A stretch of DNA of 31,522 nt, taken from positions 1-31,522 of IMG/VR virus record IMGVR_UViG_3300032288_001687; one strand, given 5' to 3'. Source of the DNA: a virus. Of the stretch, positions 9,662 through 26,043 are shown one piece after another (position 1 is the stretch's first letter; each line of letters opens with the position of its first letter). Below the pieces are notes generated by a model. The model saw only the letters and a list, made by a program, of their open reading frames with translations, did not search any database and had not been told where the DNA came from. The position numbers and the translations under genes were made by a program.

Positions 9662-9774
9662 ATACCTACCATCCTCCGCATACTTACCACGTAACTGAAA
9701 ATTATTTTCACAAATCTACACTTTTCCCCTCTTGACAACCATTTTGCGACCACGCTAGATCACTCGTATTGGCT

Positions 9775-9796
9775 GTCAATCCTAGATCGGATTGAC
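9775..9796. promoter_or_regulatory. Perfect inverted repeat, candidate operator
   Basis: GTCAATCC and GGATTGAC form perfect 8-base arms around a 6-base spacer TAGATC. Size and spacing suit a dimeric repressor. It lies in the leader of the 115-aa gene and overlaps a second hairpin at 9787-9803. The function is inferred from symmetry only. Confidence 0.5.
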
Positions 9797-9803
9797 GATC
9801 CGA
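9787..9803. promoter_or_regulatory. Hairpin overlapping the 9775-9796 palindrome
   Basis: TCGGAT, loop TGACG, ATCCGA: a perfect 6-base stem with a 5-base loop. It shares bases 9789-9796 with the neighbouring palindrome, so in RNA the two stems exclude each other. No T-run follows on either strand, so it is not a simple terminator. Confidence 0.4.
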
Positions 9804-9856
9804 ACCGCGAGTAAAGTGCTTTCCTCGATAGTCGTTGTCTTTCCTCCTCAATATAA

Positions 9857-9885
9857 AATTAAAAAAAGCTTGCTTGTTACAACTT
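9857..9885 (-). promoter_or_regulatory. Possible leftward promoter in the gap
   Basis: On the minus strand a TTGTAA element is followed after about 18-19 bases by TTTTAT/TTTATA, within a T-rich tract, upstream of the 115-aa gene. Several -10 registers are possible and none is close to consensus, so this is a weak candidate. Confidence 0.25.
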
Positions 9886-9942
9886 GCGACGACAATCGCA
9901 TAGCCGACTGCACAAGGCGTGCGCCGTCGCACGAGCGTGTAT

Positions 9943-10242: not shown

Positions 10243-10340
10243 TTTAGACCCCTTAAAACTAAGTAACTTTCCAGCATGTCCAAGTAAACTTCGTTCGCAG
10301 ACGTGCCGGTCTTTTTGGCAAGTTCCTGCAACGCCTTGTC
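10239..10340 (-). pseudogene. Small gene-like frame lacking a start codon
   Basis: This frame reads D-K-A-L-Q-E-L-A-K-K-T-G-T-S-A-N-E-V-Y-L and ends L-R-G-L-K before a TGA that overlaps the next ATG as ATGA. Composition and the coupled stop are those of a real gene. Upstream is a perfect AGGAGG with a well-spaced ATG at 10342, but that ATG is in a different frame and reaches a stop after 22 Cys/Arg-rich codons. One missing G after the ATG, or a -1 slip straight after initiation, would give a 34-aa product. It is either a frameshifted gene or a sequencing error. Confidence 0.5.
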
Positions 10341-10351
10341 ATTTTTCCCTC

Positions 10352-11254
10352 CTATATGTTTGGAAAATCATCTTGTTTACCTTCTTCGATTGCTTCTTCC
10401 GGTACGATGCACTGGGTAAGTTTTTTCAGCCTAATACGCGACCGCCAGAAGTTATCTCGCACACGCTCGGCGAGATTGTGCGTCAAGTAGGCTTCGGCCT
10501 TTTCCTTCGCCTCTCCCTCGAGCGCTCCTGTATCGTAAAAGGTCGTGAGCTGGGCAATATGGTCGCTCCCCTTACGTGTGGGCGCTTTTGGTGCAGCGGC
10601 AATCGCGTCGGCTATAGTCACAGCCTCCCGCACATAGCCGTTTGCTTTCGCCTCAGTGTGGACCTCCTCCGGCTCCGTCGTGCGGCAGTCTTCAAAAATC
10701 TCGACCGTTTTCCCTTCGAACCTTGGCGGTTGGTATTCAGCCGGCATTTCCTCAGCGGTATACAAACCGTTTAATTGACTCGGGAAGGCTTTCCGAAGCG
10801 CTATCGACTCAGCGACCTTCTTAATCATGATGCGAGGAGCGCTCGTCCACATTCCGCGAGGCTTTTTGTAATCAGCGAGGAGCGCTTCTCCTTCCTGTGG
10901 TATGCGTCGATCTTTGCGGTATACACGGCACCAAGCGCCGATAAAACTGCCGTCCGGTACGCTCTTGACCCATTCGCCGGTAGCCGAAATCATGCCAGTC
11001 TCAGCGCCGTCAAACTCGGGAAAAGAGTTAGCGAGCGTCCAGAAACCGTTGATGCCTGTCATCATTTGCAGGCGGCCGGATTGTTGATCTTTGATAAACC
11101 AAATCTCCTTCTTGAACGGGTTTAACCCCGTGCTCTTGCAGAATTGAACAAACATCTCAAACTCTGCCACGGTCGCTCCGACTGCTACGGTATTACGCAG
11201 CGTCGTCAAAAGTTCCTGCGAGCTATAGTCGATTGTCGTTAGTGCGTTAGTCAT
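10352..11254 (-). CDS. bet: Bet/RecT-family single-strand annealing protein
   Basis: A 300-aa protein matching phage recombination protein Bet (Red-beta/RecT superfamily). The signature is in the N-terminal half: F-V-Q-F-C-K-S-T-G-L-N-P-F-K-K-E-I-W-F at about 32-50, then M-T-G-I-N-G-F-W-T-L-A, G-A-W-C-R-V-Y-R-K-D-R, and a C-terminal core part with M-I-K-K-V-A-E-S-I-A-L-R-K-A-F-P. These proteins anneal complementary ssDNA and usually pair with a 5'-3' exonuclease. None is recognised here, but a VRR-NUC nuclease and an SSB-like protein are in the same operon. The ATG at 11254 has AGGAGG 6 bases upstream. The C-terminal about 100 residues are acidic and variable. Confidence 0.9.
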   Translation of the reverse strand: MTNALTTIDYSSQELLTTLRNTVAVGATVAEFEMFVQFCKSTGLNPFKKEIWFIKDQQSGRLQMMTGINGFWTLANSFPEFDGAETGMISATGEWVKSVPDGSFIGAWCRVYRKDRRIPQEGEALLADYKKPRGMWTSAPRIMIKKVAESIALRKAFPSQLNGLYTAEEMPAEYQPPRFEGKTVEIFEDCRTTEPEEVHTEAKANGYVREAVTIADAIAAAPKAPTRKGSDHIAQLTTFYDTGALEGEAKEKAEAYLTHNLAERVRDNFWRSRIRLKKLTQCIVPEEAIEEGKQDDFPNI

Positions 11255-11657: not shown

Positions 11658-11837
11658 TTATCCGTGCATGATAATGTCGCCGGCGTTAGCCTCAATCTCT
11701 AACAAGCCTTCCTCGCCAGGCGTTCCGAGCCAAATGCCCCACTCGATAACTTTGCCGTCCGAGTTGGCGATCCGTGCAATATACGGGCGGCCGTATCTTT
11801 TTTCGTTGTATGCGTGTGTCTTTATTGATTGCTTCAT
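11658..11837 (-). CDS. First leftward gene, conserved early phage protein, truncated by a stop
   Basis: A 59-aa product: M-K-Q-S-I-K-T-H-A-Y-N-E-K-R-Y-G-R-P-Y-I-A-R-I, then W-G-x-W-L-G-T-P-G-E-E-G-L-L-E-I and A-N-A-G-D-I-I-M-H-G before TAA. The pattern is one I recognise from many phage early genes that normally extend to about 100 residues; the rest is present in frame beyond the stop. The function is unknown. GGAG at 11844-11847 with a 6-base spacer supports the ATG at 11837, rather than an upstream in-frame start at 11903 that lies inside the promoter region. It is the first gene from the leftward promoter. Confidence 0.65.
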   Translation of the reverse strand: MKQSIKTHAYNEKRYGRPYIARIANSDGKVIEWGIWLGTPGEEGLLEIEANAGDIIMHG

Positions 11838-11863
11838 AACTATCTCCAAAACGCTTAATTGCG

Positions 11864-11883
11864 TATTGTGAAAATACACAATA
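11864..11883. promoter_or_regulatory. Operator palindrome over the leftward -10 element
   Basis: TATTGTG and CACAATA are perfect 7-base arms around AAAATA. The spacer is exactly the -10 hexamer (TATTTT on the minus strand) of the leftward promoter, so a bound dimer would block it. The half-site TATTGTG recurs at 11965-11971 inside the HTH gene. Confidence 0.6.
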
Positions 11884-11899
11884 GCCGGACGATGCGCAA
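11871..11899 (-). promoter_or_regulatory. Leftward promoter of the early operon
   Basis: On the minus strand TTGCGC (plus 11894-11899) lies 17 bases upstream of TATTTT (plus 11871-11876), a sigma-70-type arrangement. The predicted start near 11864 gives a 27-base leader containing the GGAG site of the first gene. Confidence 0.6.
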
Positions 11900-11923
11900 G
11901 CAATTATTGCAAAAAAGCGCATC
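11891..11923. promoter_or_regulatory. Nested palindromes between the divergent promoters
   Basis: Outer arms GATGCGC (11891-11897) and GCGCATC (11917-11923) enclose an inner palindrome GCAAT-T-ATTGC (11900-11910). The element covers both -35 hexamers, leftward TTGCGC and rightward TTGCAA, so it is a likely shared operator or activator site. Confidence 0.55.
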
Positions 11924-11935
11924 ATGACGTAAAAT
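11907..11935 (+). promoter_or_regulatory. Rightward promoter giving a leaderless mRNA
   Basis: TTGCAA (11907-11912), a 17-base spacer, TAAAAT (11930-11935). With the usual spacing, +1 falls at 11942, the A of the HTH gene's ATG. No ribosome binding site precedes that ATG, which agrees with a leaderless transcript. Confidence 0.6.
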
Positions 11936-11941
11936 AATTGA

Positions 11942-12163
11942 ATGAGACGTGAACCCCTCCCGATTATTGTGCGGAAACATTTAGGCGTGACCCAGTATAA
12001 GTTAGCGAAACTTATGGGGAAAAGTCCGAGTACTTATCGGGCAACGGCGATGCACGCAAAGAAAATGTCGTTGTCGGATCTTGCTCGTTTGCGAAAAGTC
12101 GGAGGGTATTCTTGGCAAGCTTTTGGGGCTCTTATCGATGCGCAGGCGGGGTCGGATGACTAA
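11942..12163 (+). CDS. Small HTH (Cro/CI-like) transcriptional regulator, leaderless
   Basis: A 73-aa basic protein with a helix-turn-helix core at about residues 15-45 (V-T-Q-Y-K-L-A-K-L-M-G-K-S-P-S-T-Y-R-A, then S-L-S-D-L-A-R-L). It is close to the length of Cro-type proteins, with no oligomerisation or cleavage domain. It is the first rightward gene and faces the early operon across overlapping operators, the classic position of a phage switch regulator. No ribosome binding site precedes the ATG, and the promoter places +1 on the ATG itself. It probably represses the leftward promoter and perhaps its own. The HTH call is from pattern, and the regulatory targets are inferred. Confidence 0.75.
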   Translation: MRREPLPIIVRKHLGVTQYKLAKLMGKSPSTYRATAMHAKKMSLSDLARLRKVGGYSWQAFGALIDAQAGSDD

Positions 12164-12362: not shown

Positions 12363-12735
12363 TGAGTTGGCGAGAGATTATTGCGATCCTATTTTATCCG
12401 ATGAATACGCAAAGGCTATAGGTCGAGAGGATTGGATTGGCACTAAATGTGTTTGGGTTGGCGAAGGTCATGAAATGTATAAAGCCTTTCTTGCTGGCTA
12501 CCAAGCCGCAGCGCCGCAGTGGATTAGCGTGGAGGATAGGCTGCCGGAGATAGGCAATCGAAGGAGCAAAGATGTATTGATTTTGGATGAGTATGGAGAA
12601 ATGAGTGTTGAGCCATTTGAAATAATTAACAATGAAATTGTAGTTGAATGGGGGGAGGCTGGTGCACGTCCATTATCCGATTTTACCCATTGGATGCCAT
12701 TACCTGAGCCGCCGAAGGAGGAAGGATGGACATAG
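12349..12735 (+). CDS. DUF551 domain protein
   Basis: A 128-aa protein. Residues about 58-122 match DUF551: W-I-S-V-E-D-R-L-P-E at the start, V-L-I-L in the middle and T-H-W-M-P-L-P-E-P-P at the end. The domain is common in phages and prophages of Gram-negative bacteria and its function is unknown. The N-terminal about 55 residues are a paralogue of the preceding 68-aa protein. I prefer the ATG at 12349, which has AGGA with about 8 bases spacing, to the in-frame ATG at 12343. It overlaps the previous gene by 14 bases and the methyltransferase by 10. Confidence 0.8.
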   Translation: MKTPDELARDYCDPILSDEYAKAIGREDWIGTKCVWVGEGHEMYKAFLAGYQAAAPQWISVEDRLPEIGNRRSKDVLILDEYGEMSVEPFEIINNEIVVEWGEAGARPLSDFTHWMPLPEPPKEEGWT

Positions 12736-13976
12736 TTGAGGCAGATATCAATTCGGTTATTCCTTACGCTTTTAACAACCGCAAACATGGCGCCGTGCAG
12801 GTCGAGCGGATTGCAAACTCAATTCAATCGTTCGGATTTAACCAGCCGATAGTTGTCGACGAAGGGAGCGTGATACTGGTAGGGCATGGGCGACTTGAGG
12901 CGGCAAAACGTTTGGGATTAAAAACCGTCCCCGTGTTGCGCATTGAAAACCTCACGCCGACGCAAAAAAAAGCGTATCGCATACTCGACAACAAACTACA
13001 AAACGATTCCGAATGGGATTTTGATTCGCTACGGATTGAGCTTGCCGAGCTTGAAGAGGCCGATTTTGATTTGGACGAATGGGGATTAAATGATTTAACA
13101 AGCTTGTTTGAAAAGGAAACCGAAGCGGTTGAAGACGATGATTTTGAGTCGCAAATTGCGGAAGAACCGTACATTAAAGCAGGCGATTTGATTACATTGG
13201 GCAGCCATCGATTATTGTGTGGCGACTCGACAAAGGCCGAGGAAGTGGCGCGGCTGATGGATGGGGCGAAGGCGGATATGATTCTCACCGACCCGCCGTA
13301 CGGAGTCTCTTATGTCGGCAAGACCAAGGACGCCCTCAAGATTGAGAACGACGCGCTTGGCGAGGATGATCTGACGGCCTTGGCGGTCGCGGCTTTTGAC
13401 AACGCCGAGGCAACCTGCCGTTCCGGTGCGTACTGGTATGCAACGGTCCCGCCGGGACCGTTGCATATTCTTTTTGCCGACGATTGGAAGCGGCGAGGAA
13501 TCCTGCGGCAGATCATGGTGTGGGCGAAGGATTCAATGGTGCTCGGCCATAGTGAGTACCACTACCAGCACGAGCCGATCCTGTTCGGATGGATTCCAGG
13601 CGACCGCCATAAGAACTCTGATCGCACGCGGACAACGCTTTGGCAGTACGACAGGCCAAAAGCAAACCGAGAGCATCCGACCATGAAGCCAGTTGCCCTG
13701 TGGGCGCAGGCCGTGACTGACGGCTCGCGGCAGGATGACATCGTGTACGATCCGTTTCTCGGCTCCGGCACTACCCTAATCGCCGCCGAGCAACTGGGCC
13801 GAAAGTGCTACGGCATGGAGATCAGCCCGCAGTATTGTCAGGTAGTAGTTGAACGATACAAAAATTATTGCAAAACAGCGGGCAAAAAGTTCGAGTGTAC
13901 TATCAACGGAGAGGTGATCGATGAAGCGTGGACGGAAACCGAGGCAGCTAACCGACGAGGACCGCGAAAGGATTAA
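12726..13976 (+). CDS. ParB-like nuclease domain fused to DNA N6-adenine/N4-cytosine methyltransferase
   Basis: A 416-aa two-domain protein. Residues about 1-110 are a ParB/Srx-like domain with G-H-G-R at 53-56 and the preceding G-F-N-Q-P-I-V-V strand. Residues about 145-390 are a class-beta S-adenosylmethionine methyltransferase: D-P-P-Y at 189-192 (catalytic motif IV) comes before D-P-F-L-G-S-G at 342-348 (motif I). A spacer of about 35 acidic residues joins them. Such fusions are frequent in phages beside terminase genes and probably protect DNA from host restriction or mark it for packaging. AAGGAGG with a short spacer supports the ATG at 12726. The target sequence cannot be read from the protein. 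The terminase small-subunit gene overlaps its last 56 bases. Confidence 0.9.
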   Translation: MDIVEADINSVIPYAFNNRKHGAVQVERIANSIQSFGFNQPIVVDEGSVILVGHGRLEAAKRLGLKTVPVLRIENLTPTQKKAYRILDNKLQNDSEWDFDSLRIELAELEEADFDLDEWGLNDLTSLFEKETEAVEDDDFESQIAEEPYIKAGDLITLGSHRLLCGDSTKAEEVARLMDGAKADMILTDPPYGVSYVGKTKDALKIENDALGEDDLTALAVAAFDNAEATCRSGAYWYATVPPGPLHILFADDWKRRGILRQIMVWAKDSMVLGHSEYHYQHEPILFGWIPGDRHKNSDRTRTTLWQYDRPKANREHPTMKPVALWAQAVTDGSRQDDIVYDPFLGSGTTLIAAEQLGRKCYGMEISPQYCQVVVERYKNYCKTAGKKFECTINGEVIDEAWTETEAANRRGPRKD

Positions 13977-14325
13977 ACGCGCCGCAGGATTGGTCAATAT
14001 TGAAGATATCGCGGCTATATGGGGCATGAGCAAAACGACCTTGTATAAGCTTGCAACAGAGGAATTGCAGCAAGGACAAGCCAGCGCAAAACTATACGTT
14101 GCGGGTAAATTGTTGGACGCAATTAAAAGGGGAAACATCGCAGCCACGATTTTTTACTTGAAGACCCGAGCGGGATGGCAGGAGACCCATCGAGTTGAAG
14201 CGGTTAGCGAAGTGACGCACAAAAGCGTTATCAAGGAGGAACCTCTTGACGAAGATGAGTGGCAAAAACAGTACGGAGTCGGTGGCGTGGGCGCCGCAGC
14301 GGGGTCGCCAACACGCTCTCATTAA
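13921..14325 (+). CDS. terS: Terminase small subunit
   Basis: A 134-aa protein with an N-terminal DNA-binding region: a basic K-R-G-R-K-P-R start, then a helix-turn-helix at about 25-45 (V-N-I-E-D-I-A-A-I-W-G-M-S-K-T-T-L-Y-K), followed by a helical oligomerisation part with G-N-I-A-A-T-I-F-Y-L-K-T-R-A-G-W, a motif typical of small terminases. It selects viral DNA for packaging and lies directly upstream of the large subunit. GGAGAGGTG precedes the ATG. The last 80 bases overlap the large-subunit gene in another frame, and that part of the protein is Gly/Ala-rich and probably disordered. Confidence 0.88.
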   Translation: MKRGRKPRQLTDEDRERIKRAAGLVNIEDIAAIWGMSKTTLYKLATEELQQGQASAKLYVAGKLLDAIKRGNIAATIFYLKTRAGWQETHRVEAVSEVTHKSVIKEEPLDEDEWQKQYGVGGVGAAAGSPTRSH

Positions 14326-15673
14326 AGCGCCGCATCCCCTCATCGGATACGGAGGAGCACGAGGCGGAGGCAAGACCGACGGCGTACTGGGCAAGTTCGG
14401 CATCTTGGCGCTCAAGTGGGGCAAGCCTTTCAACGCTGTTTTTTTCCGTCGCGAAATGCCTCAGGCCGACGATTTAATGGAGCGGGCCAGGGAGATATAC
14501 TTGCCAGTCGGGGCCGAATGGTACGAGCAAAAACGCATGTTCGTATTTCCTTCGGGCGGCCGCATTCGGTTTCGACCGTTGGAGAACGACGCCGACGCTC
14601 AAAAATACCAGGGCCAAAACTTGACCAACGCAGCCGTCGAAGAGGCGGGAAACTATCCCGACCCTGCGCCAATATGGAAACTTTTTGGAGCGCTCCGGTC
14701 GGTCGGTGGCGTGCCTATCCAACTGATTCTAACGTTCAACCCAGGCGGTCCTGGACATCGATGGATACGGGAGGTGTTCTACAAACCCGCACCGCTAGGT
14801 ATGCGCACGCTCGAGTGGAAACTACCCACGGGCAACTCGGTCAAATACGTGTATATCCCGTCAACCGTGCAAGACAACCGCATTCTTCTCGAGAAGGATC
14901 CAGGGTATATCGACCGTCTCCATTTGGTCGGCTCTCCCGAATTGGTGCGGGCGTGGCTGGAGGGCGACTTTGAAATTACGCAAGGAGCATATTTCCCAGA
15001 GTTCGGCAGCCGTCACATCATCGCACCATTTGCGATTCCGACGCATTGGCCGAGATATCTTGGCTACGACTGGGGATATGCTTCGCCGTTTGCAGCCGTG
15101 TGGGGCGCGGTATCGTCGGGCAAGGATGACAGCGGGCGGGAGGTGCCGTATCCCAAAGGCTCAATCGTTATCTATCGCGAGCTATGGGGCAAGCTGGTCG
15201 AGAACGCCGACCAGGGTGTGAAAGTAGCGGCGGCTGGTCGTGGCGAGAAACCTATTTGCGTGGGCGATCCGGCGATGTTCAAACACGACGGCGGGCCAAG
15301 TATCGCCGACCAAATTAACGCGAAACTTGTCGAGGGCGGGCATCCGACGCTTAAGCGGGCAGACAACGACCGGATCTCTGGATGGTCGCAGATACGACAA
15401 CGGCTTATGAGCAATCCGGCGATGCTATACGTCACCACATCTTGTCCGTATCTGATTGACTCGTTGCCGGCGTTGCAGTTTGATCTAACCCGCACGGAGG
15501 ACGTTGATACGACCGGCGACGACCACGTTGCGGATGCGCTCAGATACCTATGCAAAGAGAGACTCCTCGACAGCGAGCATAAAAAAGTGGTAGAACCGGC
15601 ACGCGATGGTAAGATATTGATCGGCGAGTATATCGCGCAAGTCAGGCGCAACAACGCAAGGACGCAGCTTTAA
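14246..15673 (+). CDS. terL: Terminase large subunit (packaging ATPase and nuclease)
   Basis: A 475-aa protein. The ATPase domain has Walker A G-G-A-R-G-G-G-K-T at 36-44 and a Walker B region A-A-V-E-E-A at about 129-134 with E132/E133. The RNase H-like nuclease domain shows acidic residues at D275 (Y-D-W-G-Y), D341 (V-G-D-P) and D425/D426/D430 (G-D-D-H-V-A-D-A-L-R-Y-L). It powers DNA translocation into the prohead and cuts the concatemer. The start is a TTG at 14246: a perfect AAGGAGG at 14233-14239 lies 6 bases before it, while the in-frame ATG at 14255 is 15 bases away. The stop overlaps the portal ATG as TAATG. Confidence 0.95.
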   Translation: MTKMSGKNSTESVAWAPQRGRQHALIKAPHPLIGYGGARGGGKTDGVLGKFGILALKWGKPFNAVFFRREMPQADDLMERAREIYLPVGAEWYEQKRMFVFPSGGRIRFRPLENDADAQKYQGQNLTNAAVEEAGNYPDPAPIWKLFGALRSVGGVPIQLILTFNPGGPGHRWIREVFYKPAPLGMRTLEWKLPTGNSVKYVYIPSTVQDNRILLEKDPGYIDRLHLVGSPELVRAWLEGDFEITQGAYFPEFGSRHIIAPFAIPTHWPRYLGYDWGYASPFAAVWGAVSSGKDDSGREVPYPKGSIVIYRELWGKLVENADQGVKVAAAGRGEKPICVGDPAMFKHDGGPSIADQINAKLVEGGHPTLKRADNDRISGWSQIRQRLMSNPAMLYVTTSCPYLIDSLPALQFDLTRTEDVDTTGDDHVADALRYLCKERLLDSEHKKVVEPARDGKILIGEYIAQVRRNNARTQL

Positions 15674-24532: not shown

Positions 24533-24560
24533 GGGGAGGGGAAACCCTCCCCACATTTTT
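24533..24560 (+). terminator. Rho-independent terminator after the capsid genes
   Basis: GGGGAGGG (24533-24540), a GAAA tetraloop (24541-24544) and CCCTCCCC (24545-24552), then ACA and five T (24556-24560). A perfect GC-rich 8-base stem with a stable loop. It lies between the decoration gene and the connector genes, and probably lowers expression of the latter relative to coat. Confidence 0.9.
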
Positions 24561-25301: not shown

Positions 25302-25350
25302 ATCGTGTATTGTAACCATGGGCAATAACGCCCGTTTACGGTGAGGATAC

Positions 25351-26043
25351 ATGACAAACTTCGACTGGCAGCAAGTTCAGCAGCAGATGAGCGGCTATAA
25401 TCAGCCCCAGAAGCGATACCGTGGCGCCAACGTAAAGTTCTTTTACGCATACAACCAAAACGTGCAAAAGACTTACGACGCAGGCCGACCGATTTTTGAC
25501 GAGGTCGAATCGATATCGATACAGTGGCCAGGAATGGACGAAACCGTGAGGGCGGTTGAGCCTCGCGACGTGCAGGAGTACCCAGAGGAATACGCTCGTT
25601 TTAAGGCCGGTTCGGAACCCGTTCAGGCTGGCACGCCGTTGATGGAGTGGTCGTTGCTACCAGGTACGGCGATGCGAGAGCTTCAGCACATGGGCTTTCG
25701 GACAGTTGAGCAGTTAGCCGAGGCGAACGACGATATCAAACGACGAATCGGTCCGTTGTCTCAGTTCATAAAAAAAGCAAAAGAATGGATCGAAGCGGCA
25801 AACGCTCCTCAGAACGAGATAGTCAGCTTGCGTGAACAGTTGGAGCGAGAGCGAAAACGCACTGAAAAGCTCGAGCGGGACTTGGCGATGTTGATTCAAC
25901 GAGTGAATGCGACAGAGGGTAATTCAATGGGCAACACGTTTTATGTTGCGCAGGGAATGGGAATTGCGGCAGAACAATATGAGGACCAGGACGTTACCTT
26001 ACCAGCGCCTCCAAAAACACGAAAACGGCAATCAACGGATTAA
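25351..26043 (+). CDS. Phage protein with helix-hairpin-like segment and coiled coil, 230 aa
   Basis: The N-terminus (about 20-105) is a mixed alpha/beta domain with P-G-M-D-E-T-V-R. A segment at about 108-135, T-A-M-R-E-L-Q-H-M-G-F-R-T-V-E-Q-L-A-E-A, looks like a helix-hairpin-helix of the RuvA type, and residues about 150-190 form a coiled coil rich in Glu and Arg. GAGG lies 5 bases before the ATG. Proteins of this build are found in the connector region of several podoviruses. A DNA or nucleoprotein contact is possible. It is not a recognised named family. Confidence 0.6.
   Translation: MTNFDWQQVQQQMSGYNQPQKRYRGANVKFFYAYNQNVQKTYDAGRPIFDEVESISIQWPGMDETVRAVEPRDVQEYPEEYARFKAGSEPVQAGTPLMEWSLLPGTAMRELQHMGFRTVEQLAEANDDIKRRIGPLSQFIKKAKEWIEAANAPQNEIVSLREQLERERKRTEKLERDLAMLIQRVNATEGNSMGNTFYVAQGMGIAAEQYEDQDVTLPAPPKTRKRQSTD

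Follow-up and report, generated by a model that had tools for sequence, protein, structure and literature searches.

The closest described counterparts of the locus analysed here are the Cro/OR region of lambdoid phages (lambda, P22 and 434), the Cro operator of the telomere phage PY54 (PMC4488713), the PaaR2/YdaS region of a cryptic prophage (PMC8630535) and the controller (C) proteins of restriction-modification (R-M) systems, such as C.Esp1396I. Leaderless mRNAs have been documented for lambda cI, PY54 cI and cro, and paaR2 (PMC4488713, PMC8630535), and C-protein genes are frequently leaderless as well (PMC4824078). With the lambdoid region our locus shares a small HTH protein, predicted divergent promoters and putative sites over both of them, and negative autoregulation would be expected. 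It differs in having neither a CI partner nor a recognised integrase, in offering one good palindrome instead of three similar operators, and in the position of the HTH gene, which heads an arm with terminase and structural genes. PY54 provides a parallel in the single palindromic operator of its Cro and in repressor mRNAs that lack a leader and begin at AUG, as predicted for our HTH gene, but PY54 is temperate and has cI, and its Cro has been inferred not to repress itself, whereas one of the sites described below (O2) would permit autorepression. The PaaR2/YdaS region is similar in its 97-bp divergent gap and its leaderless regulator mRNA, the latter being a probable feature of our locus; unlike our locus, it contains a toxin-antitoxin operon and a pair of regulators that oppose each other. 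C proteins of the C.Esp1396I type, finally, resemble the HTH protein considered here in size and fold, in the proximity of a methyltransferase and in their leaderless genes, which ours would match, but the two types of C-box that we tried are absent from our locus and no restriction enzyme was recognised.

The window, i.e. the whole stretch of DNA that was analysed, is the complete IMG/VR virus record IMGVR_UViG_3300032288_001687 (31,522 nt). A mostly collinear near relative (G001, 31,387 b) bridges the end of the window and its start with 11 bases in between, and the termini of G001 itself overlap by ~128 bases, from which a circular map of ~31.5 kb follows for the genome. The 104 bases at 11838-11941 constitute the sole divergent gap of this genome. 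Between 11837 and ~6857 the genes are all oriented leftward and make up the early arm, with a VRR nuclease, small unknowns and a RecT-family single-strand annealing protein (10352-11254, minus strand; PF03837, 112 bits). All genes from 11942 through the window ends and round the circle to 6865 point rightward; they encode the HTH protein, a DUF551 protein, a methyltransferase with a ParB_N and an N6/N4 DNA methyltransferase part (12726-13976, plus strand), TerS, the large terminase TerL (14246-15673, plus strand), and portal, capsid, tail and lysis proteins. The compact divergent control region postulated by the original prediction is thus supported, with genes pointing away from it on both sides. 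Neither Rfam nor tRNA searches yielded any match, and the large terminase used as a query against a collection of bacterial and archaeal genomes, in search of a host, retrieved no relative.

Next to recT, the segment 10243-10351 is what is left of a gene encoding 114 aa, which the near relatives G001 and L007 possess in intact form; the window is without ~240 b at 10335/10336. The methyltransferase is swapped for other methyltransferases in the same two relatives, and the window's version contains a 31-b palindrome with perfect 14-b arms followed by a T run (13437-13467); no hairpin of this type was found in the rightward arm of L008, L007 or G001. In the wide family, some terminases carry in-frame insertions (in L113 1380-2246 of G023, in G006 and G016, and in L112 1145-2170 of G011). 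The insertion of G023, at about residue 427, matches Intein_splicing (PF14890) above the cut-off, and that of G011 (342 aa at about residue 128) has no Pfam match.

The gap is present in three near relatives (G001/L003, L007/L002 and L008/L004). Their alignment with the window, four genomes in all, reveals two near-invariant blocks, one (11855-11883) holding the main palindrome together with the -10 box of the leftward promoter and the other (11903-11941) the entire rightward promoter as far as the ATG, and the 19 bases between the two diverge strongly. L007 has a different first leftward gene, yet it retains the control block up to GCTTAATTGC, which looks as if the block had been exchanged as a unit. 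The gene replaced there (11658-11837, minus strand) is intact in G001, where it encodes 105 aa; in the window an in-frame TAA at 11658-11660 shortens it to 59 aa, and the frame beyond this codon remains readable.

The rightward promoter (TTGCAA-17-TAAAAT, 11907-11935, plus strand) is present as previously claimed. Scored with a sigma-70 matrix, it takes second place in the window as a whole and first place when intergenic candidates alone are counted; its hexamers and spacing are invariant in the four genomes. The -10 box ends at 11935, which leaves 6 nt up to the start codon (ATG) of the HTH gene at 11942, and the predicted transcription start (~11942) coincides with the A of this codon. The anti-Shine-Dalgarno pairing of the HTH gene (-0.3 kcal/mol) is the weakest among the 37 genes tested, the next one reaching -2.6 kcal/mol. 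From the short distance and the poor pairing we infer, with some force, that the HTH mRNA probably has no leader and starts at its AUG, a point that the original prediction had missed. In the wide family, the start codons of the HTH genes are ambiguous.

The leftward promoter (TTGCGC-17-TATTTT, 11899-11871, minus strand) presents a more mixed picture. The letters are where they had been reported, the -35 boxes of the two promoters are indeed 7 b apart, and the position is conserved; as a promoter, however, the element is weak, ranking 437th in the window by the sigma-70 matrix and staying under the threshold of a separate promoter scan. Its counterpart in G001 and L007 (TTGTAA-17-TATTTT) scores better, and the TTG of the -35 box is kept at exactly 17-bp spacing although the surrounding 19 bp diverge. 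The predicted start at ~11864 would leave a 27-nt leader that includes the GGAG Shine-Dalgarno sequence of the first leftward gene (anti-Shine-Dalgarno pairing -6.4 kcal/mol). An alternative leftward -10 box, AATAAT (11908-11903), was discarded, as its final T is lost in G001 and L007. The polymerase footprints of the two opposing promoters would overlap, so direct competition between them is possible.

The gene at 11942-12163 (plus strand) encodes a 73-aa regulator that belongs to the Cro/CI (XRE, HTH_3) type by both profile and fold: it matches HTH_3 (PF01381) with 24.6 bits (cut-off 23), and its AF2 model (pLDDT 83) displays five helices arranged in an all-helical HTH fold. Among the near relatives the gene is 92% conserved at the DNA level and 99-100% at the protein level, and a tblastn search of 50,697 phage records with the protein gave no match. 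No genome has more than one HTH_3 match above the cut-off (a second, weak match in G001 scores 10.5 bits), which supports the earlier view of a regulator that stands without a CI-type partner.

The solved folds nearest to the model are those of P22 C2 and of R-M controller proteins, with a significance that is generic. The presence of P22 C2 among them, together with a divergent layout and a leaderless repressor mRNA reminiscent of lambda cI, PY54 cI and paaR2 (PMC4488713, PMC8630535), could be taken to mean that the protein is an immunity repressor (CI/C-like) of a temperate phage or phage-plasmid, which would sustain lysogeny by repressing the leftward arm. We consider this very improbable, given that a tyrosine integrase (PF00589) was detected in none of 13 records by a search for this family whose control succeeded in 14 of 14 cases, that the 73 aa accommodate no dimerisation or cleavage domain, and that the HTH gene opens the arm encoding terminase and structural proteins, no conserved terminator separating it from them. 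A lambdoid lysis-lysogeny switch comprises two opposing repressors and an integration module; here we see a single HTH_3 protein above the cut-off and, in the 13 records, no tyrosine integrase. Nothing favours the "switch" of the original prediction in a bistable sense.

The matches to the controller proteins C.Esp1396I, C.BclI and C.AhdI (TM 0.64-0.77) raise another option, namely that the HTH protein works as a controller of the C-protein type and times the DNA methyltransferase encoded in the same operon. It would be in keeping with the frequent lack of leaders in C genes (PMC4824078) and with the methyltransferase, of changing type, that lies between the HTH gene and TerS in the near genomes. 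Still, we find it quite unlikely: small HTH proteins generically give fold matches with E-values like those obtained here (0.02-0.1), the C-boxes GACT-N3-AGTC and CTAAG-N5-CTTAG are absent from the gap even when 2 mismatches are allowed, the proteins scanned include a methyltransferase and no recognisable restriction endonuclease, and the best operator-like site is located on the opposite, recT-side promoter. Moreover, G010 has an HTH gene before the terminase with no recognisable methyltransferase between them.

That site, here called O1 (TATTGTG-AAAATA-CACAATA, 11864-11883), lies over the leftward -10 box and start, its spacer being the complement of the -10 hexamer. The palindrome highlighted by the original prediction thus exists exactly as described and is conserved, but on its own it is marginal (P 0.05-0.10): a repeat with perfect 7-bp arms occurs in 5% of shuffles of the 104 bases with loops of 3-8, and in 10% with loops of 0-12, so that the support for O1 comes from its conservation and from the recurrence of the motif. 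The left arm reads TATTGCG in G001 and L008, a change that is uncompensated. In CRP-type sites TGTG and CACA are separated by N8; the two are separated by N6 in O1, and this assignment was rejected. A second, weaker site unnamed in the original prediction, O2 (TATTGCA-AAAAAG-CGCATCA, 11905-11924), covers the rightward -35 box and is invariant in the four genomes. The proposed overlap of promoters and operators is hence supported, at the level of the DNA letters, for O1 and O2 as candidate sites. A third site, O3 (TATTGTA-ACCATG-GGCAATA, 25308-25327), is found in a 49-b intergenic gap of the late arm (25302-25350), before the gene at 25351.

Two further elements fared less well. The nested palindrome GATGCGC-N19-GCGCATC (11891-11923) is there as letters, but its left arm is lost in relatives, for which reason we judge it a chance occurrence; at least one perfect 7-bp repeat with a loop of up to 30 appears in 19% of shuffles of the 104 bases. 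The additional TATTGTG half-site (11965-11971, plus strand, codons 8-10 of the HTH gene) is present and conserved, but its conservation is uninformative because it lies within codons of a protein that is 99-100% identical, and as an isolated half-site it remains doubtful.

Could the dyads simply reflect promoter or untranslated-region constraint, or chance, so that the gap would be no more than two divergent promoters, with the HTH protein acting elsewhere or on host genes? The P-value of 0.05-0.1 for the palindrome, the uncompensated change in the left arm of O1 and the lack of counterpart palindromes in the gaps of the wide family are all compatible with this possibility. We nevertheless regard it as doubtful in view of a relaxed motif, TATTGYR-N6-YRCAATA, written from the gap sites and their variants, with a degeneracy chosen after those sites had been seen. 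With up to 2 mismatches allowed, this motif retrieves only O1 (0 mismatches), O3 (1) and O2 (2) from the whole window, and the same three sites and no others from G001, so that the best genome-wide sites agree, at one spacing, in two genomes. When spacers of 0-12 were tried, matches with at most 1 mismatch occurred in the window at N6 alone; G001 has one further such match, with spacer N2, inside its covarying hairpin. The number of sites with at most 1 mismatch expected by chance is 0.067 (order-2 Markov model), and two such sites were obtained with 0.5% of 840 scrambled half-site controls.

O3 calls for more caution. It is kept exactly in three other contigs with varying flanking bases, and L026 exhibits a single spacer change together with a different upstream flank. 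However, many distant relatives of the gene at 25351 (48-65% identical) have TTAGTGCTATAA or a similar box plus a hairpin at the place of O3, and the left arm of O3 coincides with the position of a TATAA-type -10 box in wide-family relatives. In L029-L079, the region upstream of the orthologue of 25351-26043 has a conserved TTAGTGCTATAA-like extended -10 box and, after it, a hairpin whose sequence varies. Such a box with a hairpin reads as a late promoter, on which O3 would then sit; conservation of O3 could stem, at least partly, from the -10 box and the hairpin loop with no repressor involved.

Eight genomes of the wide family encode homologues of the HTH protein (25-29% identity) upstream of TerS/TerL, in most cases adjoining left-pointing genes, which indicates that the arrangement is old. 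In G005, a small HTH gene is divergent from a recT operon and is accompanied by a GACAAG-N4-CTTGTC dyad. No palindrome like O1 was found in the HTH-upstream regions of the wide family, and in the eight genomes the late hairpin shares short words, and no dyad, with the region upstream of the HTH gene. The operator model therefore rests on the close group, for which use of O1, O2 and O3 by the repressor is a candidate interpretation.

Starting from the layout, the conservation, the lack of a Shine-Dalgarno sequence, the three motif sites and the lack of a recognised integrase, all read from the sequence, we infer promoter use, transcription starts, dimer binding and the order of shut-off as follows. 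The strong rightward promoter would produce the leaderless mRNA of a Cro-like repressor that heads the methyltransferase-terminase-structural arm, and the weaker one, facing away from it, would drive the leftward arm with its RecT/recombination and nuclease genes. A repressor dimer would bind TATTGYR-N6-YRCAATA. As the protein accumulates, O1, the best site, covering the leftward -10 box and start, would be occupied and the leftward arm closed first; at higher repressor levels, occupation of the weaker O2 over the rightward -35 box would establish a negative feedback loop, and O3 would reduce the activity of a promoter within the late arm. In this way one protein, through sites of graded affinity, would hand over from the leftward arm to the rightward one, with no bistable lysogeny switch. 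A Cro-like repressor closing first the leftward arm and later itself is the simplest account, and we lean slightly towards the view that the gap is a Cro-like control region of this kind, serving a handover by one small HTH repressor and not a lysis-lysogeny decision.

According to the original prediction, about 100 bases seemed to contain all control of the phage genome. This is overstated, since other candidate control features exist elsewhere, namely the gap 25302-25350, which resembles a promoter region, the terminator position at 24533 and the non-coding stretch 9662-9942. A terminator-like hairpin (24533-24552) follows the capsid/cement genes, and near the matching position G001 has an unrelated, stronger terminator, i.e. 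the position is conserved. Within the leftward arm, the non-coding stretch (9662-9942, 281 b) is ~93% conserved, and the two arms of its hairpin have covaried (GTCAATCC..GGATTGAC in the window versus GTTATTGC..GCAATAAC in G001 and L007); it is possibly a structured RNA, and a comparison with Rfam produced no match.

The control region described here is an element of an ordinary kind, well kept within its lineage, and it leaves the general picture of phage gene control unchanged. A broader generalization, which we put forward as an unlikely proposition, is that widespread integrase-less environmental phages of 31-37 kb pass from early to late expression by means of one HTH repressor, made from a leaderless mRNA and acting at three graded sites (on the early promoter, its own promoter and a late-arm promoter), with operators diverging fast between lineages. 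If the Cro-like reading of the gap is true, a group of environmental phages that is common though uncultured would have a control circuit reduced to one protein, with an operator prediction (O1, O2 and O3) that is easily testable, and a divergent region of the Cro-like kind would not have to imply a temperate phage.
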